Shown here piece after piece: positions 13,177 to 29,151 of a stretch of DNA of 64,000 nt. Every line of letters starts with the position of its first letter. Within the stretch, counting starts at the first letter, position 1. Below the pieces are notes generated by a model that made no database searches, was not told the DNA's origin, and saw only the letters and a program-made list of their open reading frames with translations. The position numbers and the translations under genes were made by a program. Source of the stretch: Pseudofrankia inefficax (GTDB lineage: Bacteria > Actinomycetota > Actinomycetes > Frankiales > Frankiaceae); the NCBI RefSeq assembly GCF_000166135.1, contig NC_014666.1, forward strand, positions 5,704,001-5,768,000. The letters run 5' to 3'.

Positions 13177-14016
13177 GTGGCGGGTCGGGTCGAGGGCAAG
13201 GTCGCGTTCATCACCGGGGTGGCCCGTGGCCAGGGCCGAGCCCACGCCATACGGCTCGCCGAGGAGGGCGCCGACATCATCGGCGTCGATCTCCTCGGCG
13301 AGGTCGACACCGTCGACTACCCGATGGCCACGCCCGACGACCTGGCCGAGACGACGGCCGCCGTGGCGAGGCTGGGCCGGCGGATCGTCACCGCCGTCGC
13401 CGACGTCCGCGACGAGGACGCGCTGCGGGCCGCCGTCGACACCGGGGTCGCCGAGCTGGGCCGGCTCGACATCGTCGTCGCGAACGCCGGCATCTCGGGC
13501 ACGGCGGCCGCCACCGACCAGCTGAGCCTGCGCGCCTGGCAGACGGTGCTCGACATCGACCTGACCGGCTGCTTCCTGACCGCGAAGGTCGCCCTCCCGC
13601 ACCTGGTCGCCGGCGGCCGCGGCGGCTCGGTCATCCTGACCAGCTCGATGCTGGGGCTGAAGGGCCAGGGCTGGATGGCCGGCTACGTCTCCGCCAAGCA
13701 CGGCCTCGTCGGCCTGATGCGGTCCCTGGCGAACGAGTTCGCCCACGCGCTGATCCGAGTGAACAGCGTGCACCCCGGCAACGTGCGCACCCCGATGATC
13801 GACAACGCGTCACTGCGCGGAATGCTGCGCCCCGACCTCGAGAGCCCGACGATCGACGACGCCGCCGCCGTCCTCGGCGCGCTGCACCTCATGCCGGTCC
13901 CACTGATCGAGGCCGTCGACGTCGCCAACGCCGTGCTGTTCCTCGCCTCCGACGAGGCCCGCTACATCACCGGCGTAGCCCTCCCCATCGACGCCGGCGC
14001 CACCGCCAAGGGCTGA
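13177..14016 (+). CDS. SDR family mycofactocin-dependent oxidoreductase
   Basis: A 279-residue short-chain dehydrogenase. The nucleotide motif is FITGVARGQGRAHAIRLAEE, followed by an insert at about residues 41-60 (GEVDTVDYPMATPDDLAET). That insert and the ARGQGRxHA signature are the hallmarks of the carveol-dehydrogenase-like, mycofactocin-associated SDR family, whose NAD(H) is bound tightly and is re-oxidised through mycofactocin. The catalytic residues are present: Ser156/157, Tyr170 and Lys174 (YVSAK). The alcohol substrate is unknown. GGAGG five bases ahead fixes the GTG start. It lies 7 kb from the MftR-like regulator and flavoprotein block, in the same window but not the same operon. 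Confidence 0.88.
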   Translation: MAGRVEGKVAFITGVARGQGRAHAIRLAEEGADIIGVDLLGEVDTVDYPMATPDDLAETTAAVARLGRRIVTAVADVRDEDALRAAVDTGVAELGRLDIVVANAGISGTAAATDQLSLRAWQTVLDIDLTGCFLTAKVALPHLVAGGRGGSVILTSSMLGLKGQGWMAGYVSAKHGLVGLMRSLANEFAHALIRVNSVHPGNVRTPMIDNASLRGMLRPDLESPTIDDAAAVLGALHLMPVPLIEAVDVANAVLFLASDEARYITGVALPIDAGATAKG

Positions 14017-18338: not shown

Positions 18339-19034
18339 ATGTCGGACGAGCAGGACGGCCTGGACCTCGACGAATCGGGGCCCGGGCGGGTCACCGTCAG
18401 CGCGGCGGCCGGCCGGCGGACCCCGCGCGGCACGCTGTCGCGCCAGGTGCTGCTGGACAGCGCCCGCGAGATCGTCGACATCGGCGGGGTGACCGCGCTG
18501 TCGATGCGCGCGCTGGGCGCCCGGCTCGGCGTCGACCCGACCGCGATCTACCGCCACTTCCAGAACAAAAACGAGCTGCTCGACGCGCTCGCCGACCTGA
18601 TGATCCGCGGCGAGGGCGGGCTGCCGGCCACCGGCGACCCGGTCGCCGACCTGCGGGAGAGCCTGCGCCAGCTGCGCCGCCAGCTGCTGCGCTACCCGAC
18701 GCTGGCCCCGTCGGTGCTGCGCCAGCCGCCGGGCACCGGCTCGTGGTGGGACCGGATGGAGCAGGCCGTCGGCGCGCTGCGGGCGGGCGGCCGGTCCGAG
18801 GCCGAGGCGGCGGCGGTCTGGCAGACGCTGCTGTTCTTCGTGGTCGGCCACGCCCTGGTCGAGGCCCGCCACCTCGCGGAGAACCTCGCGACGGACCGGG
18901 TCGGCGCGCCGATGCCGACCGTGAACCCGCCGCGCTCCCGGTACCCGGAGCTCGCGGCCGCGGCGCCGTTCCTGCACGCCGACCTCGACGACCAGTTCGA
19001 GACGGGCCTCGACAGCATCCTGGGCAGCCGCTGA
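18339..19034 (+). CDS. TetR family regulator with TetR-type C-terminal domain
   Basis: A 231-residue repressor. After a 35-residue acidic and glycine-rich leader, the helix-turn-helix runs LSRQVLLDSAREIVDIGGVT, ALSMRALGARLGVDPTAIYR, HFQNKNELLDALADLMI. The C-terminal half (LRESLRQLRRQLLRYPTLAP and WQTLLFFVVGHALVEARH) resembles the ligand domain of tetracycline-repressor-like members. The target is unknown; the PAC2 gene diverges from it, and a candidate operator lies just upstream. GCGGAA precedes the ATG. Confidence 0.88.
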   Translation: MSDEQDGLDLDESGPGRVTVSAAAGRRTPRGTLSRQVLLDSAREIVDIGGVTALSMRALGARLGVDPTAIYRHFQNKNELLDALADLMIRGEGGLPATGDPVADLRESLRQLRRQLLRYPTLAPSVLRQPPGTGSWWDRMEQAVGALRAGGRSEAEAAAVWQTLLFFVVGHALVEARHLAENLATDRVGAPMPTVNPPRSRYPELAAAAPFLHADLDDQFETGLDSILGSR

Positions 19035-20050: not shown

Positions 20051-20677
20051 CTACAGGGTCTCGGCCAGGCCCTCGGTGAGCAGGCGCAGCGCCTGGTCGA
20101 GGATCGGCCCGAGGTCGGCGCCGGGGCGGGCGAGCCATTCCTCGTAGCCGGCGACCGCGACCCCGAGAAACGCCCAGGCGACCGCGCGCGGCTCCAGGGC
20201 GTCGGTCTGCCGGCCGGTCCGCGCGGCGACGAACTCGGCGACGACGGCGCGCCAGGCGGCGTAGCGCAGCGTCGAGTGCGCCTGGAGCGCCGGCGTGCGC
20301 AGGATCAGCGCCATCCGGCGCCGGTGCCAGTCGGCCTCGGCGACCGGGTAGGTGTTGAAGTCCAGGATCGCCCGGCGCAGCGCGGCCAGCACCGGAACCT
20401 CGGCCGGGGTCGCGGCCAGCGCGGCGCGCATGGTCTCCAGGTGGGCGTCGAACTCGCCCCAGGCGACGTCGTTCTTGGACGCGTAGTAGCGGAAGAAGGT
20501 GCGCCGGCCGATGCCGGCGACGGCCGCGATGTCGTCGACCGTCGTCGCGTCGAACCCGCGCTCCTCGAAGATCAGGAGCGCGTGCCGCTCCAGCTCGGCC
20601 GCCGTCGTCACCGGCCGCCGGCCGGCCCGGCCCGTCGAGGACCTGGGCTCCTGCGGGGGCGCGCCGTTGTGCACCAC
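20051..20677 (-). CDS. mftR: MftR-like TetR family regulator of the mycofactocin system
   Basis: A regulator of about 208 residues. The HTH part (TAAELERHALLIFEERGFDA, TTVDDIAAVAGIGRRTFFRY, YASKNDVAWGEFDAHLETMR) and the ligand part (AALRRAILDFNTYPVAEADW, ALILRTPALQAHSTLRYAAW, VAWAFLGVAVAGYEEWLARP) follow the mycobacterial MftR pattern closely, including RRTxFRYYxSKN, DFDAHL-like and LILxTPALQAxS blocks. In mycobacteria MftR represses mycofactocin genes and responds to long-chain acyl-CoAs. It diverges from the flavoprotein operon; two matching palindromes lie between. GTG at 20677 or 20674 is the start. Confidence 0.82.
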   Translation of the reverse strand: MVHNGAPPQEPRSSTGRAGRRPVTTAAELERHALLIFEERGFDATTVDDIAAVAGIGRRTFFRYYASKNDVAWGEFDAHLETMRAALAATPAEVPVLAALRRAILDFNTYPVAEADWHRRRMALILRTPALQAHSTLRYAAWRAVVAEFVAARTGRQTDALEPRAVAWAFLGVAVAGYEEWLARPGADLGPILDQALRLLTEGLAETL

Positions 20678-20740
20678 GTCACCGTACTCCCGAAGATCGT
20701 TCCTACGGAGCCTGGCGCTCGTGGCGGTATCCCTTTCCTC

Positions 20741-20755
20741 TGGCACCCGGTGCCA
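20741..20755. promoter_or_regulatory. Candidate MftR operator 1
   Basis: TGGCACCCGGTGCCA has perfect 6-base arms (TGGCAC/GTGCCA) around CCG. It lies in the gap between the divergent mftR-like and flavoprotein genes. A second site with identical arms begins 42 bases further on. Assignment to the adjacent TetR-family repressor is inference from position and symmetry. Confidence 0.7.
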
Positions 20756-20782
20756 ATATGCTTCGCCTCGCTCCTCCTTCTT

Positions 20783-20797
20783 TGGCACCGAGTGCCA
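20783..20797. promoter_or_regulatory. Candidate MftR operator 2
   Basis: TGGCACCGAGTGCCA repeats the arms of operator 1 exactly, with a different 3-base centre (CGA). The 42-base offset is four helical turns, which puts both sites on one face of the DNA and would suit cooperative binding of two TetR dimers. Confidence 0.7.
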
Positions 20798-20882
20798 TAG
20801 AACGCCGGAGCACGGTCGCTCCGCCCGCCGGCGGGCGACCAACCCCATTGCGAGGCGGACGGACACACGGTATGGCCAACGT

Positions 20883-22934
20883 ATGACCGCGATCGACGGT
20901 GAGTCCGCCGTGTCGGCGGGCTCCCCCGAGCCCGCTGGCCCGGCGCTCGCCACGCCGCTGCCGCTGCGCGGCCACATCGCGCCGTCACGGGTCCTGTTCG
21001 GTCCGCACGAGACGAACCTGGCCCGCCGCCGCGACATCTCCGACCGGCACGTCGCGTACTACGCGCGCCGGGCCGCCGGCGGCGCCGGGGTGATCGTCAC
21101 CGAGACGGCGTCGGTCACCGCCGATGACTGGCCCTACGAGCGGGCGCCGCTGGCGGCCGACTGCGGGCCCGGCTGGGCAGCGCTGGCCGAGGCTGTGCGG
21201 CCGTATGGCACCGTCGTGCTGGCCGGGCTCGGCCACGCGGGCGGCCAGGGGTCGAGCGCGTACTCGCAGGCGGTGCTGTGGGCGCCGTCACCCGTCGCGG
21301 ACGCGGCCAGCCGGGAGCTTCCCGCCGAGCTGGAGCAGGACGGGATCGACGCCATCGTGGCCGGCTTCGCCGCCGGCGCGTCGCTCGCGGTCGAGGCGGG
21401 CCTGGCCGGGGTGGAGATCGACGCCGGCCCGCTCGCGCTGCTGCGCCAGTTCCACTCCGGGCTGACCAACCACCGCGGCGACGGCTACGCCGACCGGCTG
21501 CGGCTCACCCGCGAGGTGCTGACGGCGGTCCGGGCCGCGATCGGCCAGGAGAAGGTGCTGGCGCTGCGGCTGAGCTGCGACGAGCTGGCGCCCTGGGCCG
21601 GGGTGACGCCCGAACACGCGGCCGAGCAGGTCGACGCGCTGGCCGGCCTCGGCCTGCTCGACCTGCTGGTCGTGGTCCGCGGCGGGCCCTACTCGACGGC
21701 CGCCTACCGGCCGACGGCGCACACCGCGCCGACGTTCAACCGCGACCTGTGCGCGGCGATCCGGGCCGCGGCGGCCGGCCGGGTCGCGGTCGCGCTGCAG
21801 GGCAGCGTCGTCGACGCCGACGACGCCGAGGCGGCACTGGCGGACGGCGTCGCCGACCTGGTGGAGATGACCCGGGCGCAGATCGCCGACCCGGAGCTGG
21901 TCACGAAGGTCCGGGCCGGCGCGGCCGAGCGGGTCCGGCCCTGCCTGCTGTGCAACCAGGCCTGCCGGGTCCGCGACAACCGCAACCCGATCGTGTCCTG
22001 CGTCGGCGAGCCGCGCAGCGGCCACGAGACCGAGGACGCGCCGGTCGACGGCACCGACCCTCGGCCGCGCGCGGTGCTGGTCGTCGGTGGCGGCCCCGCA
22101 GGGCTGGAGGCGGCCCGGGTGCTCGCCAGCCGAGGCCACACCGTCACGCTGGCCGAGGCGGGCGAGCAACTGGGTGGGACGCTGCGTACCTCGGCTGTCG
22201 GGCCGGGCCGGGAGCGGCTGGCGCGCCTCGTCGACTGGCTGGAGGCCGAGTGCGCGCGCCTGGGGGTGACTGTCGAGCTGGGCCGGACGGTGACCGCGGC
22301 CGAGCTGGACACCGCCGAGGCCGCCGGCCAGGCCGTCATCCTCGCCACCGGCTCGGTGGCCGCGGACCGGGACTACCCGGCGACGGCGGATGCCTTCGCG
22401 CCCCAGGTCGTCGACGCGCTGAGCCTGCTCGCCGCCGGTCCCGACCTGCTGGTCGCCGGGCCGGTCGTCGTGCACGACCCGGTCGGCGGGCCGGTGGCGG
22501 TCGGGATCGCCGAGTGGCTGGCCGCGGCCGGCCGGGAGGTCGCCCTCGTGGCGCCCGACCAGGTCGCCGGCACGTTGCTGTCGCTGACCGGCGACCTCGC
22601 CCCGGCGAACACCCGGCTCGCGCAGGCCGGCGTGCGCCGCGAGCTGCGCGCGCTCGTCCGCGAGATCGGCGACGGCCACGTCGTGCTGGAGGACGTCTGG
22701 ACCGGCGCCCGCCGCGAGATCCCGTGCGCGGCCCTCGTCGACTGCGGCCACCGGCTGCCCGACGAGGCGCTCTACCTGGCCCGCCCCGGCACCCCGCGGG
22801 CCGGCGACTGCGTCGCCCCGCGCACCGCGCTGGAGGCGGTGCTGGAGGGCCGGCGCCGAGCGCTCGAACTCGCGCGCCGCGCCCCGGCCCGCGTGAGCCC
22901 GCTGGCCGGCGCCGGCACGGGAGGGGCCCGATGA
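20883..22934 (+). CDS. FadH/OYE-type (TMADH-like) flavoprotein oxidoreductase, mycofactocin-associated type 1
   Basis: A 683-residue enzyme with an FMN TIM-barrel (residues 25-360), a 4Fe-4S site and a C-terminal FAD/NAD(P)-type domain (ADP motif VLVVGGGPAGLEAARVLASR), the architecture of 2,4-dienoyl-CoA reductase and trimethylamine dehydrogenase. The cluster cysteines are in CLLCNQACRVRDNRNPIVSC (C-x2-C-x3-C-x11-C). In the active-site loop the usual His and Tyr are replaced (DAGPLALLRQF, about 180-190), so classical dienoyl reduction is unlikely. It is the first gene of the block controlled by the MftR-like regulator, and its stop overlaps the next start (ATGA). Confidence 0.85.
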   Translation: MTAIDGESAVSAGSPEPAGPALATPLPLRGHIAPSRVLFGPHETNLARRRDISDRHVAYYARRAAGGAGVIVTETASVTADDWPYERAPLAADCGPGWAALAEAVRPYGTVVLAGLGHAGGQGSSAYSQAVLWAPSPVADAASRELPAELEQDGIDAIVAGFAAGASLAVEAGLAGVEIDAGPLALLRQFHSGLTNHRGDGYADRLRLTREVLTAVRAAIGQEKVLALRLSCDELAPWAGVTPEHAAEQVDALAGLGLLDLLVVVRGGPYSTAAYRPTAHTAPTFNRDLCAAIRAAAAGRVAVALQGSVVDADDAEAALADGVADLVEMTRAQIADPELVTKVRAGAAERVRPCLLCNQACRVRDNRNPIVSCVGEPRSGHETEDAPVDGTDPRPRAVLVVGGGPAGLEAARVLASRGHTVTLAEAGEQLGGTLRTSAVGPGRERLARLVDWLEAECARLGVTVELGRTVTAAELDTAEAAGQAVILATGSVAADRDYPATADAFAPQVVDALSLLAAGPDLLVAGPVVVHDPVGGPVAVGIAEWLAAAGREVALVAPDQVAGTLLSLTGDLAPANTRLAQAGVRRELRALVREIGDGHVVLEDVWTGARREIPCAALVDCGHRLPDEALYLARPGTPRAGDCVAPRTALEAVLEGRRRALELARRAPARVSPLAGAGTGGAR

Positions 22935-24922
22935 GCGCGACCTCGCGGTACCAGTACCTGTTCAGCCCGCTGCGGATCGGGCCCCTGACGGTCCGCAACC
23001 GGGTGGTCTTCTCGGCCCACCTGACGAACTACGCCGCCGACGGGCTGCCGACCGAGCAGCACGCCGCCTACTACGCGGCCCGCGCGGCCGGTGGCGCCGG
23101 GCTGATCATCACCGAGGAGCACTCGACCCACCCGACCGACTGGCCGTACGAGAAGCTCATCCACGGCTTCAACCCGGCCGTCATCCCCGGCTACCGGCGG
23201 ATCACCGACGCGGTCCACGCCCACGGCACGCCGATCCTCGCCCAGATCAACCACAACGGCGGCCAGGCGTCGTCGATGTTCTCCCGCCAGCCCGTGTGGG
23301 CGCCGAGCCCGGTGCCCGACCCGCTGTTCCGCGAGGTCCCCAAGGCGCTGGAGCCGCACGAGATCCGCGAGGTCGTCGCGGGCTACGGGCAGGTCGCCGA
23401 GCACTGCGCGGCCGGCGGGTTCGACGGGATCGAGCTGCAGTGCTCGCACTCGTCGATCGTGCGCGGGTTCCTCTCCCCCGCGACCAACCGGCGGACCGAC
23501 GAGTACGGCGGCTCGCTGGCCAACCGGGCCAGGCTGCTGCTGGAGATCGTCGACGCGGTGCGCGCCGCGATCGGGCCCGAGCTGGCCCTCGGGGTCCGGA
23601 TCTGCGGCGACGAGCTGATCGAGGGCGGTACCACCATCGAGGACGCGGTGGCGATCGCGACGATGGTCGAGGCGTCCGGCAAGGTCGACTACATCAACAC
23701 CTCGATCGGCGTCGCCACCGCGACGCTGTACATGATCGAGGCGAGCATGCAGGTGCCGCCGGGCTACGCGATGTTCATCCCGAGCGCGATCCGGGCCGCG
23801 GTGAACCTGCCGGTGGTCGGCGTCGGCCGGTTCAAGGACCCGCTGCAGGCCGACCGGGCGCTCGCCGCCGGCCAGGCCGACCTGATCGGCATCGTGCGCG
23901 GCCAGATCGCCGACGCCGACTTCGTCGCGAAGGCCCGCGCCGGGCACGCCACCGAGATCCGCACCTGCCTGTCGTGCAACCAGGAGTGCGTCGGGCGGAT
24001 GGGCCTGAACCGCTGGCTCGGCTGCATCGAGAACCCGCGCACCGGCCGGGAGGCCGTCCCGCTGCCGGCGCCGCGCCGGCGCGGGCAGCGGGTGTTCGTC
24101 GTCGGCGGCGGCCCCGGCGGCCTGCAGGCCGCGGTCAGCGCGGCCCAGCGGGGCCATCACGTCACCCTGTTCGAGCGCTCCGACCGGCTCGGCGGCCAGG
24201 TCCAGCTCGCCGCCAGCGTGCCGAGCCGGGCCGAGTTCCTCGACATCGTCCGCAACCTGATCGCCCACGCGCAGCGGGTCGGCGTCGACGTCAAGCTGTC
24301 GACCGATGTCGACGCGGACCTGCTGCTCGCCGAGAAGCCGGACGCGGTGATCCTCGCGACCGGGGCGGCGCCGAACCCGCCCTGGTGGGCCGGCGCGGCC
24401 GGGTCGGGCCCGGACCACCGGGTCGTCGACGTCCGCGACGTCCTGGAAGGCCGGGCGGCGCCGAGCGGGAAGGTCGTCGTCATCGACGAGCTGGGCTTCC
24501 ACCAGGCCACCTCGGTCGCCGAGCTGCTCGCCGACCGGGGCTGCCAGGTCGAGGTCATCACCAACGGCATGGTCGTCGGCCAGGACCTGGGCGTCACCCT
24601 CGACATGGAGCAGTGGAACGTCAAGGCGGCCGCCCGCGGCGTCACCCAGGCCACCGACCTGGTGCCGATGGGCGCGGCGCCGGCCGAGAACGGCGCGGGC
24701 GTCGTGCTGAACCTGCAGCACCACCCGACCGGCACCGACCAGACGCGGGAGGTGGACTGGGTGGTCTGCGCGGTGCACCAGCGCGCCGAGGACGGCCTGT
24801 ACAGGGCGCTGCGCGCGGCCGGGGCCCTGCCCTTCACCCTCCAGCGGGTCGGCGACTGCCTCTCGCCCCGGCGTGCCCACGCCGCCGTCGTCGAGGGCCA
24901 GCGCGCGGCGGTCGCACTGTGA
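22931..24922 (+). CDS. FadH/OYE-type (TMADH-like) flavoprotein oxidoreductase, mycofactocin-associated type 2
   Basis: A 663-residue paralogue of the preceding gene product with the same three parts. The FMN barrel starts YQYLFSPLRIGPLTVRNRVV; HNGGQASSMFSRQPVWAPSP and FLSPATNRRTDEYGGSLANR are family blocks. The Fe-S motif is CLSCNQECVGRMGLNRWLGC. The FAD domain opens VFVVGGGPGGLQAAVSAAQR. The active-site loop keeps His173 but has Ser175 where 2,4-dienoyl-CoA reductase has its proton-donating Tyr. Relatives such as trimethylamine dehydrogenase pass electrons to ETF, and ETF genes follow here after 226 bases. Confidence 0.87.
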   Translation: MSATSRYQYLFSPLRIGPLTVRNRVVFSAHLTNYAADGLPTEQHAAYYAARAAGGAGLIITEEHSTHPTDWPYEKLIHGFNPAVIPGYRRITDAVHAHGTPILAQINHNGGQASSMFSRQPVWAPSPVPDPLFREVPKALEPHEIREVVAGYGQVAEHCAAGGFDGIELQCSHSSIVRGFLSPATNRRTDEYGGSLANRARLLLEIVDAVRAAIGPELALGVRICGDELIEGGTTIEDAVAIATMVEASGKVDYINTSIGVATATLYMIEASMQVPPGYAMFIPSAIRAAVNLPVVGVGRFKDPLQADRALAAGQADLIGIVRGQIADADFVAKARAGHATEIRTCLSCNQECVGRMGLNRWLGCIENPRTGREAVPLPAPRRRGQRVFVVGGGPGGLQAAVSAAQRGHHVTLFERSDRLGGQVQLAASVPSRAEFLDIVRNLIAHAQRVGVDVKLSTDVDADLLLAEKPDAVILATGAAPNPPWWAGAAGSGPDHRVVDVRDVLEGRAAPSGKVVVIDELGFHQATSVAELLADRGCQVEVITNGMVVGQDLGVTLDMEQWNVKAAARGVTQATDLVPMGAAPAENGAGVVLNLQHHPTGTDQTREVDWVVCAVHQRAEDGLYRALRAAGALPFTLQRVGDCLSPRRAHAAVVEGQRAAVAL

Positions 24923-25024
24923 GCGTAGGAGTGAGCGAGTGGAGTGGTCGTCCGAGGTACGAGGACGGCCGCGGAGCGAGTGAGGCGACGGAGCGAACTC
25001 GGGGCACTGTGAACCACATGATCA

Positions 25025-25099
25025 TGATCGCCGTTTCCGCCCTCCCGTGGTTTTCTACGGGGCCGGATGACAACCACCAGAGGGCGCAAATGGCGATCA
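25025..25099. repeat. 75-bp palindromic intergenic repeat, copy 3 of 3
   Basis: The left arm starts TGATCGCCGTTT at 25025; the right arm ends AATGGCGATCA at 25099. It sits inside the 226-base gap between the second flavoprotein gene and the ETF alpha gene, so it interrupts an otherwise tightly packed operon. The 100 bases before it hold GAGCGAGTG-type low-complexity sequence but no gene. Confidence 0.85.
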
Positions 25100-25148
25100 A
25101 GCCGTCCTCGGCGGCCGTTTGGCCACCGGATCAGCGCAGGCAGGTGCG

Positions 25149-26330
25149 ATGACCGAGACGATCTCCGCGGCCACCCGGGAGCCGACCGTCCCGCCGACGA
25201 CGGAACTCGACCCGGCCGCGACGGCGATCACCGGAATCACCGCGCTGGTGGTGGCACGCGGCGGGGCGGTGCCGCCGGGTGGGGCCGAGGCCGCGGCGGA
25301 GGCCGGCGGCCGGGTGCTCGTCGTCGGCTCCGGGGCCGCCGAGGCAGCCGAGGCGCTGCACCGGGCGACCGGCGGTGGGCCCGCGACCGAGGTCTGGTGG
25401 GCCGACACCGGCCCGGGACTGCGGGCTGGCACTCTGGCGGCCTCGCTCGCCCGGGCGCTCGCGGGTGCCGATCTCGTCGTGCTGCCCGCCTCCGCGGACG
25501 GGCGCGACCTCGCGCCGCGGCTGGCCGCAGCCCTCGACGTCCCCCTGCTGGCCGGCGCCGTCGCGGTGCGATCCGGCGCCGACGGCGAGCTGCGGGCCGA
25601 CCTGTCCCGGATCGACGGGCGGTTGCTGGTCACGGCGACCTGCGTGGCCCCGGCGGTCGCCACGCTGCTCCCCGGCGCGCGGTCCCTGTACGACGGGCCC
25701 GTCGCGCCGCCAGCCGGCGCCGCGATCCCGGCCCAGCCGAGTGGCGGGCCCGTCGCCGTCACCCTGGCGGCCCCGCCCGCCGGCCTGGTCGACGTCGAGG
25801 TGCTGGAGGTGCTGGAGCCCGACCCGGCGACGATGGACCTCGGCGAGGCGCGCCGGGTGCTCGGCGGCGGCGCCGGGCTGGTCGCCCGGACCGGCGCGCT
25901 CGCGGCGGTCGCGCCGGCGGCGGCGTTCGAGCTGCTCGCGGGCGTCGCGGCGGCGCTCGGGGCGTCGGCCGGAGCGACCCGGGTGGTCACCGACGCCGGC
26001 TGGATGAGCTACGACCGGCAGATCGGCACCACCGGCGTCACCCTCGACCCGGAGCTGTACCTCGCGTTCGGGGTCTCCGGCGCGAGCCAGCACACCGGCG
26101 GCCTGGGCGCGCCCGGCCATGTCGTGTCGATCAACACCGACCCGAGCTGCCCGATGACGTCGATGGCCGACCTCGGCCTCGTCAGCGACGCGGGCGGCCT
26201 GCTGGTCGAGCTGGCCCGCCGGCTCGGCGTCCCCCTCCCAGCCGGCCTCGACCCTCCAGCCGGCGCAGACCTCCCAGCCGACGGAGACGCCGCCGTGCCC
26301 GAACCGCGTGGGGAGGCCACGAGTGTCTGA
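25149..26330 (+). CDS. Electron transfer flavoprotein alpha subunit (FixB-like, mycofactocin-associated)
   Basis: A 393-residue ETF alpha homologue. The N-terminal ETF domain includes RVLVVGSGAAEAAEALHRAT and SLARALAGADLVVLPASADG. The C-terminal FAD-binding domain contains VVTDAGWMSYDRQIGTTGVT, LYLAFGVSGASQHTGG and the FAD-phosphate segment VSINTDPSCPMTSMADLGLV. It is about 70 residues longer than common ETF alpha, through Ala/Pro-rich ends. It should pair with the beta subunit encoded three genes downstream and pass electrons to the FixC-like enzyme. Its stop overlaps the fixC-like GTG start by 8 bases. Confidence 0.87.
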   Translation: MTETISAATREPTVPPTTELDPAATAITGITALVVARGGAVPPGGAEAAAEAGGRVLVVGSGAAEAAEALHRATGGGPATEVWWADTGPGLRAGTLAASLARALAGADLVVLPASADGRDLAPRLAAALDVPLLAGAVAVRSGADGELRADLSRIDGRLLVTATCVAPAVATLLPGARSLYDGPVAPPAGAAIPAQPSGGPVAVTLAAPPAGLVDVEVLEVLEPDPATMDLGEARRVLGGGAGLVARTGALAAVAPAAAFELLAGVAAALGASAGATRVVTDAGWMSYDRQIGTTGVTLDPELYLAFGVSGASQHTGGLGAPGHVVSINTDPSCPMTSMADLGLVSDAGGLLVELARRLGVPLPAGLDPPAGADLPADGDAAVPEPRGEATSV

Positions 26331-27654
26331 CGAGCGAGTGTCTGACGACAGGGCGCCCGACGTCGATGTGATCGTCGTCGGCGCCGGGCCGGCCGGCGCG
26401 GCGGCGGCACTGACGGCGGCCCGCGCGGGCGCGTCGGTGGTGCTGCTGGAGCGCGGCCCGTTCCCCGGCTCGAAGAACGTCTACGGCGGGGTCATCTACG
26501 GCCGGATCCTCGACGAGGTGCTGCCGAACTGGTGGGAGGAGGTGCCGGTCGAGCGCTGGGTGGTCCGCCGCTCGACGATGATCCTCACCGAGACCCAGGC
26601 GCTCACCGTCGACTTCCGCACCCAGGCCTGGGCCGGGCCGCCCTACAACGGCATGACCGCCTACCGGGCCGACTTCGACAGCTGGCTGGCCGGCAAGGCG
26701 ACCGCCGCCGGGGCCCGGCTGGTCACCTCGACGGTCGCGACCGGGCTGCTGCGTGACGCCACCGGCCGGGTCGTCGGCGTGCGCACCGACCGCGCCGACG
26801 GCGAGCTGCGGGCCAAGGTCGTCATCGCGGCGGACGGTGTGAACTCCTTCCTGGCCAAGGAGCTCGGCCTGCTGCCGAAGGCCGAGCCGACGCATCTCAC
26901 GCTGGGCGTCAAGGAGGTCCTGTCGCTGGGGCGCGAGGTGATCGACGAGCGGTTCGGCCTGCGCGGCTCCGAGGGCCTCGACATCGAGATGCTCGGCAAC
27001 ACCCGGGGCATCCCGGGCGGCGGCTTCCTCTACACGAACAGCGACACGGTCGCCATCGGCGCGGTGCTCGCCCTGCCGGGGCTCGCCGCCGCGAAGGTGC
27101 GGCCCGAGGAGATCATCGCCGACCTGAAGGGGCACCCGGCGATCGCGCCCTACCTGCGCGGCGCGACGGTGAAGGAGTACGCGGCGCACCTGATCCCCGA
27201 GGGCGGCTACGACCACATGCCGGCGCTCGCCGCCGACGGGCTGCTCATCGCCGGCGACGCGGCCGGGATGACGCTGGCCGCCGGGATCTGGCTGGAGGGC
27301 GTGAACTTCGCCCTCGGCTCCGGGCTGGTCGCGGGCCGGGTCGCCGCCGAGGCGGCCGCGGCGGGCGACGCGTCGAAGAAGCGGCTCGGCGCCTACCGCG
27401 CCGCGCTGGAGAAGCAGTTCGTCCTGGCCGACCACAAGCGGCTGCGCGGGGCGCCGGAGATCATCCTCTCGGAACGGATCCAGCGCCGCTACCCGGGCCT
27501 GATGGCCGACCTGGTCGAGAGCCTGTTCACGGTCACGAACCCGCAGCCGAAGCCCGGCGCGCTCGCCCTGCTGCGGCGCGCGGCCAAGCGCAACGGCGTC
27601 AGCCTGCGCGAGCTCGCCAGCGACGGCGTGAAGATCGGAAAGGTGTTCCGGTGA
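26323..27654 (+). CDS. FixC-like ETF:quinone oxidoreductase
   Basis: A 443-residue FAD protein of the geranylgeranyl-reductase/ETF-QO family. The dinucleotide fold VIVVGAGPAGAAAALTAARA is followed by the FixC blocks NVYGGVIYGRILDEVLPNWW, PYNGMTAYRADFDSWLAGKA, LTLGVKEVLSLGREVIDERF and GLLIAGDAAGMTLAAGIWLE. FixC-type proteins lack their own 4Fe-4S domain and use FixX, whose gene follows here with a GTGA overlap. It would oxidise the ETF and reduce quinone at the membrane face. GGGAGG six bases ahead of GTG 26323 supports the start; the GTGTCTGACGA start sequence is duplicated 15 bases on. Confidence 0.92.
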   Translation: MSDERVSDDRAPDVDVIVVGAGPAGAAAALTAARAGASVVLLERGPFPGSKNVYGGVIYGRILDEVLPNWWEEVPVERWVVRRSTMILTETQALTVDFRTQAWAGPPYNGMTAYRADFDSWLAGKATAAGARLVTSTVATGLLRDATGRVVGVRTDRADGELRAKVVIAADGVNSFLAKELGLLPKAEPTHLTLGVKEVLSLGREVIDERFGLRGSEGLDIEMLGNTRGIPGGGFLYTNSDTVAIGAVLALPGLAAAKVRPEEIIADLKGHPAIAPYLRGATVKEYAAHLIPEGGYDHMPALAADGLLIAGDAAGMTLAAGIWLEGVNFALGSGLVAGRVAAEAAAAGDASKKRLGAYRAALEKQFVLADHKRLRGAPEIILSERIQRRYPGLMADLVESLFTVTNPQPKPGALALLRRAAKRNGVSLRELASDGVKIGKVFR

Positions 27655-28085
27655 GCCGCTTCGGCTTCCGCAAGGCCTCGGCGGCCGGCCTGGCGGCCCC
27701 GGACACGACACCCGCGGTCCCGGCACCGGCACCCCTGGCCCCGACGGCCGCGATGCCACCCGCGCCGGCGGCGTCGACCTCGACGGCGGCGGGCGAGCGG
27801 TACGGCGAGCTGGCGTTCGACGACCGGATGGCGACGGTCGACTTCCGGGTCGGCGAGCGGGCGCACATCGTCGTCGACTCCGACGTCTGCCGGTCGTGCA
27901 CCACCCGGGCCTGCGTCACGGCCTGCCCGGCGGACCTGTTCGCGCCGACCTCCGACGGCGGCATCCTGTTCAACTACGAGCAGTGCTTCGAGTGCGGCAC
28001 CTGCTACCAGGTCTGCAACGGCGAGGGCGCGATCACCTGGACCTATCCCGACGGCGGCCACGGCGTCGTCTTCCGCCAGGGCTGA
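27651..28085 (+). CDS. FixX-like ferredoxin
   Basis: A 144-residue iron-sulfur protein. After about 45 Ala/Pro/Ser/Thr-rich residues, the core reads MATVDFRVGERAHIVVDSDV, CRSCTTRACVTACPADLF and YEQCFECGTCYQVCNGEGAI. The last block with CxECGTC is the FixX signature. The eight cysteines exceed the four needed for one 4Fe-4S cluster; whether a second forms is open. The partner is FixC encoded just upstream; together they correspond to the two parts of ETF:quinone oxidoreductase. The N-terminal extension is unusual and probably flexible. Confidence 0.9.
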   Translation: MSRFGFRKASAAGLAAPDTTPAVPAPAPLAPTAAMPPAPAASTSTAAGERYGELAFDDRMATVDFRVGERAHIVVDSDVCRSCTTRACVTACPADLFAPTSDGGILFNYEQCFECGTCYQVCNGEGAITWTYPDGGHGVVFRQG

Positions 28086-28089
28086 GGGC

Positions 28090-29151
28090 ATGAGCGTGCA
28101 CACGAACGGACCGTCCCCCGTCACCCCGGCCTCCAGCAGCCCGGCCCCGCGGGCCGCGCAGCCGGCCCCCGACGACACGCCGCTCGTCGCGGTCTGCCTG
28201 CGGGTGGCCGACCTGCGGCCGCGGGTCGACCCGCTGACCGGCGCGCTGACCCAGTCCGCGCACGGGGTGGGGCTCTCGGCGGCCGACGAGGCGGCGCTCG
28301 AACGGGCGCTGACCATCGCCGAGGCCTGGTCGGGCCGGGTGCTCGCGCTCGCCGCCGGGCCGCCGATCGTCGACGGGCCGCTGCGCGCCGCCTCGGCGCT
28401 CGGCGCGCAGCCGCTACGGGTCGCCTGGCCGCCCGCCGATCCCGCGGCCCACGGCGGCCCGGGGCACGGCCACGACATTCCCGACCAGCGCGACCCCGAG
28501 CCGTTCGGCCCGGCGTCCCAGTACCTCGCGGACGTCGCCGGCGACACCCGCGCGCTGGCGGTGGCCCTGGTGGACGCGATCCGCACGGTCGGCGAGCCGG
28601 CCCTGGTGCTGTGCGGCGACCACTCCCCCGACCGCGGCACCGGCGCGCTGCCCGCACAGCTCGCCGACGCTCTCGGTGCCGCGCAGGCGCTCGGCCTCGT
28701 CGACCTGCGCGTCGAGCCCCAGCAGGTCGGCGAACCCCGGCAGGCCGGTGAGCGCAGGCTGCTTGGTGAGCGCAGGCTCGACGGGGGACGCCGGGAGCGG
28801 CTGCGGATCCCGACGCCGGCGGTGTGCTCGGCCGAGGCGGCCGGAGTCCGGCTGCGCCGCGCGTCGCTGCCGGCGCTGCTCGCCACCGGCGACGCCCCGA
28901 TCCCGGCCGTCGAACCCGCCGGCGACGCGGACCTGGCCGGCGCGGTCCGGGTCGAGTCGGTCCGCGCCTACCGCCCGCGCACCCGGGTGGTCCCGCCGCC
29001 GGCCGGCGCGACGCCCCGGGACCGGCTGCTGGCGCTGACCGGCGCGCTCGTCGCCCATGAGCCTCCCATGATCGTCGGCCCGGCCAGCGCGGCCGAGGCC
29101 GCCGACGCCCTGCTGGCCTACCTCACCCGCGCCGGCTACCTGACCTCCTGA
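28090..29151 (+). CDS. Electron transfer flavoprotein beta subunit (FixA-like, mycofactocin-associated)
   Basis: A 353-residue ETF beta homologue. It begins with a Pro/Ala/Ser-rich leader of about 30 residues, then TPLVAVCLRVADLRPRVDPL, LSAADEAALERALTIAEAWS, GRVLALAAGPPIVDGPLRAA and LALTGALVAHEPPMIVGPAS. A central insert (EPQQVGEPRQAGERRLLGER and following) is built of repeated DNA (GGTGAGCGCAGGCT twice). Common ETF beta is about 260 residues, so this is a divergent, extended form. It closes the operon order alpha, quinone oxidoreductase, ferredoxin, beta. A 15-bp tandem repeat begins at its stop codon. Confidence 0.82.
   Translation: MSVHTNGPSPVTPASSSPAPRAAQPAPDDTPLVAVCLRVADLRPRVDPLTGALTQSAHGVGLSAADEAALERALTIAEAWSGRVLALAAGPPIVDGPLRAASALGAQPLRVAWPPADPAAHGGPGHGHDIPDQRDPEPFGPASQYLADVAGDTRALAVALVDAIRTVGEPALVLCGDHSPDRGTGALPAQLADALGAAQALGLVDLRVEPQQVGEPRQAGERRLLGERRLDGGRRERLRIPTPAVCSAEAAGVRLRRASLPALLATGDAPIPAVEPAGDADLAGAVRVESVRAYRPRTRVVPPPAGATPRDRLLALTGALVAHEPPMIVGPASAAEAADALLAYLTRAGYLTS

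Follow-up and report, generated by a model that had tools for sequence, protein, structure and literature searches.

The closest described counterpart of the system studied here is MftD (TIGR03966), an FMN-dependent dehydrogenase of the lactate dehydrogenase type that is encoded by one gene. MftC and MftE convert the tail of MftA to AHDP, a free cyclic amine, which in MftD-type organisms is deaminated by MftD to premycofactocin (PMFT). MftD uses oxygen. Its family occurs in most, not all, mycofactocin species (Haft 2011, PMC3023750), and in M. smegmatis the loss of mftD leads to a build-up of AHDP and abolishes mycofactocin formation (PMC7491314), so that mftD-less genomes would need another enzyme if they make the cofactor. 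A second flavoprotein, MftG (TIGR03970), belongs to the GMC family, acts on mycofactocinol and provides a route from the mycofactocin system to respiration. We analysed a 64,000-nucleotide stretch of the Pseudofrankia inefficax genome (contig NC_014666.1, positions 5,704,001 to 5,768,000; hereafter the window), which carries a divergent regulator gene and six structural genes for two flavoproteins, an electron transfer flavoprotein (ETF) and FixC- and FixX-like proteins. This block is probably an alternative premycofactocin synthase system that replaces MftD.

For one genus it is already in print that mftD-less clusters carry a gene of the OYE family: 17 Saccharopolyspora clusters without mftD carry TIGR03997 and, like the block type described here, have an MftA that ends in IDGMCGVY (PMC11162802, 2024). 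The section of that paper on these clusters is silent on ETF, on FixC/FixX, on any cross-genome exclusion and on archaea and anaerobes, and it describes TIGR03997 as a family of unknown function. S. erythraea makes methylated mycofactocin according to work cited in PMC11162802; the lack of mftD concerns clusters, and S. aridisoli has mftD elsewhere. In the literature searched we found no paper pairing "mycofactocin" with "electron transfer flavoprotein", and as far as that literature shows, what is new is the six-gene unit, its distribution in archaea and anaerobes, its exchange with mftD at a single operon site and the finding that the exclusion of MftD spans domains.

The preliminary description of this locus had recognized a coherent seven-gene unit, and all seven genes are present and well named at window positions 20051-29151, on a single-contig genome of 8,815,781 bases (sample label G000). 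Family calls use NCBIfam curated cut-offs, and gene bounds and starts come from a rough gene-caller. The features are as follows.

20051-20677, minus strand: MftR, TetR-type regulator of the mycofactocin system (TIGR03968, 273.8 bits, cut-off 224.9; start from the rough gene-caller)
20742-20754, no strand: near-match to the MftR operator, palindrome GGCAC-N3-GTGCC (consensus of PMC8728441)
20781-20799, no strand: exact match to the MftR operator consensus T-N2-GGCA-N5-TGCC-N2-A (one of three genome places with the extended pattern; reversed control 0)
20883-22934, plus strand: OYE1, flavoprotein of the FadH/OYE family, proposed partner of OYE2 (TIGR03996, 923.2 bits, cut-off 627.9; Fe-S cysteines kept, active-site His lost)
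22931-24922, plus strand: OYE2, flavoprotein of the FadH/OYE family, proposed catalytic AHDP dehydrogenase (TIGR03997, 987.3 bits, cut-off 793.15; relatives among amine dehydrogenases and ene-reductases)
25149-26330, plus strand: mycofactocin-associated ETF alpha, EtfA (NF038209, 408.8 bits, cut-off 240)
26323-27654, plus strand: FixC-like ETF:quinone oxidoreductase (PRK10015, 315.7 bits, below the cut-off of 466; best PDB match 7koe chain C, 252.9 bits)
27651-28085, plus strand: FixX-like ferredoxin containing two cysteine clusters (54.9 bits in the FixX model, under its cut-off of 166)
28090-29151, plus strand: mycofactocin-associated ETF beta, EtfB (TIGR04503, 410.2 bits, cut-off 200)
13177-14016, plus strand: mycofactocin-coupled SDR oxidoreductase, nearby and outside the operon (TIGR03971, 379.5 bits, cut-off 300)

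All five proteins with a curated mycofactocin-associated model (MftR, OYE1, OYE2, ETF alpha and ETF beta) exceed its cut-off, which bears out the assignment of the regulator and both flavoproteins to mycofactocin-associated types. The remaining two genes miss the equivalog cut-offs of FixC (312.5 against 610 bits) and FixX (54.9 against 166 bits), but are clear relatives of the closest models as judged from sequence. Adjacent genes overlap by 4 bases (OYE1/OYE2), 8 bases (EtfA/FixC) and 4 bases (FixC/FixX), and the gaps are 4 bases between FixX and EtfB and 226 bases between OYE2 and EtfA; this spacing suggests an operon flanked by a divergently oriented regulator gene.

The absence of mycofactocin core genes noted in the preliminary description is true of the surroundings of the block and not of the genome. 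mftA, mftB, mftC and mftF cluster near 1.26 Mb, with mftE about 11 kb from them, and all five exceed their cut-offs (605 bits for mftC, 254 bits for mftE); with this core present some 4.5 Mb from the block, the possibility that the organism has no mycofactocin genes was rejected. Only mftD is missing, a whole-genome search having returned no TIGR03966 match at 1e-60, and the genome holds all tested pathway genes except one for the AHDP-deaminating enzyme. It also contains no MftG match over the cut-off: a GMC oxidoreductase at 1.60 Mb reaches 240.4 bits against a cut-off of 387.45 and was rejected as MftG, being choline-dehydrogenase-like and lying beside genes that resemble the sarcosine-oxidase type. 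At this locus (L243 463-2223 and 5662-6411), mftE and a pair of apparently ordinary ETF beta and alpha genes are about 3.4 kb apart.

We measured the association of the block with the pathway and with MftD in 393 drawn Actinomycetes genomes, 112 with mftC over the cut-off and 281 without. Block status was scored via ETF beta, which gave 13 genomes over the cut-off and four with split or partial matches (G292, G017, G162, G100); G251 was added because its mftC contig reads mftC-OYE1-OYE2-etfA-fixC and then ends. The block was present in 16 of 112 mftC-positive and 2 of 281 mftC-negative genomes (p 7e-8), so that the expected co-occurrence with mftC holds for 16 of 18 block genomes and fails for G142, a 93% complete genome in 850 contigs that has mftE, and for G206, considered below. 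MftD exceeded its cut-off in none of the 16 mftC-positive block genomes, as against 94 of 96 block-less ones (Fisher p 1.6e-17, a value that ignores kinship); the latter figure combines 61/62, after moving G251, and 33/34 from two MftD searches. The two exceptions were G300 (92% complete, 1200 contigs) and G140, whose MftD match is clipped at a contig end and scores 470.3 bits against a cut-off of 470.85. Among the block genomes the best MftD score was 420 bits, in G316. This MftD-like match (G316:C277:4263-5378) is intermediate between MftD (>600 bits at full length) and the other matches in block genomes (<310 bits).

A similar partition was seen in a named set of mftC loci, which comprises the best 80 of at least 583 confirmed relatives of an archaeal-led MftC query in 79 genomes and is no random sample. 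Beside mftC, 34 loci have OYE1 and/or OYE2, 25 have MftD, 21 have neither, and none has MftD together with the block; at L137, MftD is accompanied by an OYE of generic type (33% identity). ETF and Fix genes accompany most of the 34 OYE loci that reach far enough, with the exception of Actinomycetospora. Whole-genome tests were made for MftD at 50 of the 80 loci (21 with neither system and 29 block) and 5 more block loci, the 25 MftD loci being taken as scored, and for OYE2 at 50 of the 80 (21 neither, 25 MftD and 4 block). OYE2 was over its cut-off in 0 of the 25 MftD-locus genomes in this whole-genome search. In the 20 further genomes behind the loci with neither system, 11 had MftD over the cut-off, one had a partial MftD of 463 bits, four had OYE2 over its cut-off without MftD and four had neither. 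Taken together, pathway genomes nearly always carry the block or MftD and rarely both, and the block therefore looks like an alternative late-step route.

The two systems also exchange places in operons. In several operons the block lies directly after mftC, in the position held elsewhere by mftD, and in several lineages it shares one gene row with mftA, mftB and mftC and with mftE and/or mftF. Five Streptomyces plasmids (NBC_00564, NBC_00334, NBC_00557, SAT1 and yangpuensis) have the order mftA-B-C-OYE1-OYE2-etfA-fixC-fixX-etfB followed by mftE, SDR or mftF; OYE2 of SAT1, missing from its gene table, was taken from a sequence match. The swap is seen within Streptomyces too, since NBC_00080 has mftA-B-C-D-E-F and mftG. 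Thermomicrobium roseum, Tsukamurella and Mycolicibacterium chubuense carry mftD without the block. In Haloterrigena turkmenica and Halolamina, which lack mftD, the genes that converge on mftA-B2-C encode ETF, ferredoxin, FAD oxidoreductase, ETF alpha and a single OYE-like protein. In a search of 72,556 plasmids, confined to plasmid sequences with the carriers' chromosomes outside it, 12 had mftC; of these, 8 have the block, 4 have MftD and none has both. Six Streptomyces plasmids match OYE2 at 70–76% identity, among them an unannotated S. lavendulae plasmid judged from matches only, and two haloarchaeal plasmids, with OYE at 37–39% identity, were counted as block by their gene row. OYE2-like matches occurred in 20 plasmid records, 12 of them without mftC (33–38% identity). 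MftD occurs only in the four block-less members of the twelve, and two Sphingopyxis plasmids outside the twelve carry 50% lookalikes.

Block-type and MftD-type clusters appear to start from the same precursor. MftA ends alike in both, with a C-G-V/I-Y tail in 76 of 80 named loci, where the search pattern itself required C-G-V/I-Y and four loci gave none; since the MftA core is alike in the two types, the idea that block-type clusters use another precursor was rejected. Three Desulfobacterales loci (L135, L146, L175) have the tail CGIY, not CGVY, so that Ile-Tyr would form the core there, and a cofactor with a one-carbon difference could result; these genomes have two tandem OYE2-like genes elsewhere.

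To place the two types on a phylogeny we built an MftC tree from 107 of 111 chosen rows (51 block, 51 MftD, 5 both), four (L131, L049, L184 and L193) being dropped for a stop in the matched stretch. Label changes were counted by a quick method with the root left unplaced. Each label needs 18 changes, and at least 7 alternations are forced by well supported branches. In a pair analysis, which adds 5 rows with neither system, 9 supported independent pairs differ in the block; MftD differs in the opposite direction in 6.9 of these, in the same direction in 0.1 and not at all in 1.9 (averages), giving a median sign-test p of 0.016 (range 0.008–0.22). The tree and the genome counts are not independent, because the tree labels come from the same tests. 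Haloarchaea, Desulfobacterota-type metagenome-assembled genomes (MAGs), both Alphaproteobacteria MAGs and one Chloroflexi MAG are of the block type, which is the only form observed here in these groups, whereas MftD is found in Actinobacteria, in the Thermomicrobium group and in a single MAG that is labelled Acidobacteriota. Two records titled Bifidobacterium breve (L165, L180) have an MftC that lies near those of Acidimicrobiales MAGs and are probably mislabelled bins. In the haloarchaea and Desulfuromonadales/Geobacter-type MAGs examined, an OYE gene and ETF/Fix genes accompany mftC, and MftD is absent. MftD was found in 0 of 297 genomes from the phylum of a Geobacter MAG, taken regardless of mftC; the same model did match in other sets.

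Of the described enzymes, trimethylamine and histamine dehydrogenases share with OYE2 an architecture of OYE domain, 4Fe-4S cluster and nucleotide domain, and the block is proposed here to share with them amine oxidation with electrons passing to ETF. Trimethylamine dehydrogenase donates to ETF. Identity between OYE2 and these two enzymes is about 24–28% in the fold search, and in the block dedicated FixC and FixX follow. We compared 40 OYE1 and 48 OYE2 rows, 8 of 56 OYE2 rows having been left out because they fell outside length limits. The second glycine-rich motif of the last domain, GxGxxG, which binds NAD(P)H and reads GCGGIG in FadH, was found in 0 of 40 OYE1 and 0 of 48 OYE2 rows. The four Fe-S cysteines after the OYE barrel are present in both window proteins and in 36 of 40 OYE1 and 43 of 48 OYE2 rows. 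The exceptions are three Actinomycetospora OYE1 with Thr at the second Cys, one OYE1 row cut by a contig end, and five delta-type OYE2 (L116, L117, L118, L120, L130) with Asp at the second cysteine (C-x2-D-N-Q), which could shift the cluster potential. Because the NAD(P)H motif is absent and the Fe-S cysteines are mostly kept, flow of electrons towards ETF, as the preliminary description had suggested, is plausible. The active-site His is kept in window OYE2 (LQCSHSS) and most OYE2 rows and absent from OYE1 rows, and a single OYE2-like protein occurs in haloarchaeal and Geobacter-type rows; on these grounds we take OYE2 as the likely catalytic flavoprotein.

The remainder of the chain resembles FixABCX/EtfABCX, in that the FixC-like protein is closest to the FixC chain of 7koe and separate FixC and FixX genes lie beside ETF alpha and beta. 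It differs in that FixC and FixX of the block fall under curated cut-offs, the ETF subunits belong to mycofactocin-specific families, and the proposed donor is OYE2 rather than NADH. For the block we infer a substrate, a reaction and its direction, an electron acceptor and a mode of repression, as follows. OYE2, with OYE1 as its partner in most actinobacterial cases, would oxidize the amine carbon of AHDP, and electrons would pass from its iron-sulphur centre to the dedicated ETF, then to FixC/FixX and the quinone pool with no need for oxygen; the route is possibly oxygen-independent. The block shares with MftD the place after mftC and the genomic partners, and would share the conversion of AHDP to PMFT. 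Its proteins are unrelated to the MftD family, and it consists of six structural genes that include a quinone route of its own, where MftD is one gene.

MftR would repress the block through palindromes before OYE1. The published MftR operator is T-N2-GGCA-N5-TGCC-N2-A (PMC8728441). The window contains just two GGCAC-N3-GTGCC palindromes, both in the 205-base gap between mftR and OYE1, and one of them fits the full consensus; a predicted MftR operator like the published one therefore precedes OYE1. A GGCA-N5-TGCC palindrome is present at the equivalent place in all five relatives scanned, as compared to just 3 of 13 other stretches before mftA/mftB, and it is absent before mftA of this genome. 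Genome-wide, the exact extended pattern has three matches and its reversed control none; the two matches outside this gap, one beside a phage-tape-measure-like gene and one not in front of a called gene, look like chance and were rejected as regulon members. A further TetR-type regulator gene at window 18339-19034 gives a weak MftR2 match (42 bits, cut-off 285). Together with the genome counts and the shared gene rows, these operator-like palindromes bear out the earlier view that the block belongs to the mycofactocin system.

Several observations weigh against replacement of MftD. Four of the 34 named block genomes (G427, G430, G431, G438) have MftD over the cut-off: Saccharopolyspora aridisoli, two Actinomycetospora with mftD away from mftC, and a MAG (G427) with MftD at a contig end. 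A third Actinomycetospora (G411, from the loci with neither system) is alike, with mftD away from mftC and OYE1/OYE2. OYE relatives that miss the TIGR03997 cut-off occur in nine of the 25 MftD-locus genomes, with a top score of 612 bits, and 4 of the 79 named genomes, all MAGs, have neither system. By sequence and by Foldseek, OYE2 is no closer to amine dehydrogenases than to 2-naphthoyl-CoA reductase and FadH. Window OYE2 has no Cys in its AHLTNY stretch, the putative counterpart of the site where trimethylamine dehydrogenase binds FMN covalently. The block also leans away from MftG, found in 2 of 16 block and 43 of 96 block-less genomes (p 0.015), and G206, a 100% complete genome, has a block with neither mftC nor mftE over the cut-off. 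This may be, once in 18, the case named in the preliminary description as evidence against its own reading, a block without mycofactocin biosynthesis genes; mftA, mftB and mftF were searched within 27.9 kb around the G206 block. That block (L083) reads OYE1-OYE2-ETF-FixCX with an altered Fe-S loop in OYE2, and it is possible that it has been repurposed.

Some of these points have a local context. In S. aridisoli, mftD lies beside two iron-ADH-like genes with no mftC near (L202), where relatives have mftB-C-D, and the locus looks like a decayed MftD-type cluster in a block-carrying genome. Actinomycetospora (L155, L156, L211) has the OYE1/OYE2 pair near mftE and mftF, with mftD elsewhere; since no ETF or Fix genes are nearby, the pair may have another role. 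The 612-bit relative of an MftD-type genome scores about as high as a haloarchaeal block OYE (619 bits), so that the TIGR03997 cut-off alone fails to split the types; they are told apart by company with mftC and ETF/Fix genes, not by OYE score. The relatives of OYE2 by sequence and Foldseek comprise 2-naphthoyl-CoA reductase and FadH on the one hand and, on the other, histamine and trimethylamine dehydrogenases and an amine oxidase, the latter three speaking for the MftD role; the fold search, run with a moderate model (pLDDT 79.8), was rejected as a discriminator between amine dehydrogenase and ene-reductase because both kinds rank together. At L206 (G445), an OYE-OYE-EtfA-EtfB row in an MftD-carrying genome stays under the cut-offs of the mycofactocin families, and is perhaps a sister system with another substrate.

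Three other explanations of the block were weighed against replacement of MftD. The preliminary description had it re-oxidize mycofactocin, or a product of mycofactocin-dependent alcohol oxidation, and feed respiration; the block would then act on mycofactocinol, pass electrons via ETF and FixCX to quinone and stand in for MftG. The full route to quinone that this requires is encoded, MftG is rarer with the block, and what replaces MftG in about 25% of mftC genomes is left open in PMC11778925. But MftG is also below the cut-off in 53 of the 96 mftC-positive block-less genomes, so its absence does not call for the block, and G086 and G232 have both; all MftG counts are lower bounds, as 3 candidates were scored per genome and the Gordonia and Dietzia models were left out. 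A simple replacement of MftG was rejected on these counts, the block not tracking MftG absence. Re-oxidation also leaves unexplained both the near-complete exclusion of MftD, a biosynthetic enzyme, and the deamination of AHDP in mftD-less genomes, and we consider it improbable. About as unlikely, though marginally less so, is a dual role in which OYE2 carries out the MftD step and OYE1, or the same chain, also oxidizes mycofactocinol and so helps where MftG is missing. Most actinobacterial blocks do have two distinct flavoproteins, one ETF/FixCX route could serve two dehydrogenases, and the scarcity of MftG would fit; against this, haloarchaeal and Geobacter-type operons have a single OYE, OYE1 is without the active-site His of the OYE fold, and block and MftG co-occur in the two genomes just named.

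It is very improbable that the block performs some other mycofactocin-tied redox step, such as tailoring or oxidizing a substrate of mycofactocin-linked dehydrogenases, while another enzyme deaminates AHDP in mftD-less genomes. Such a role would accommodate Actinomycetospora, which holds OYE1/OYE2 beside mftC, mftE and mftF together with mftD, as well as the closeness of OYE2 to ene-reductases and the mftC-less block of G206. However, the additional enzyme would have to coincide with the block in archaea and in several bacterial phyla and to come and go with it at the repeated swaps, and the shared place after mftC would go unexplained. Replacement of MftD thus remains the reading that we favour.

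A broader scenario, which we regard as possible rather than probable, takes the OYE/ETF/FixCX block for the earlier premycofactocin synthase, coupled to respiration and independent of oxygen, which MftD came to replace repeatedly in Actinobacteria and the Thermomicrobium group. In that case mycofactocin would serve anaerobes and archaea as a cofactor too. The Clostridia named as carrying mycofactocin, Pelotomaculum and Desulfotomaculum (PMC3023750), are outside the sets surveyed here. The step by which mycofactocin becomes redox-active is attributed to MftD, yet this enzyme is missing from haloarchaea, from MAGs of the anaerobe type and from many actinobacteria that have the pathway. Under the rule of antiSMASH 6.1.1 a cluster must contain mftD (PMC11162802), and naming the replacement would correct cluster rules that miss such loci. 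It would also give a function to four NCBIfam families and suggest how anaerobes make the cofactor.

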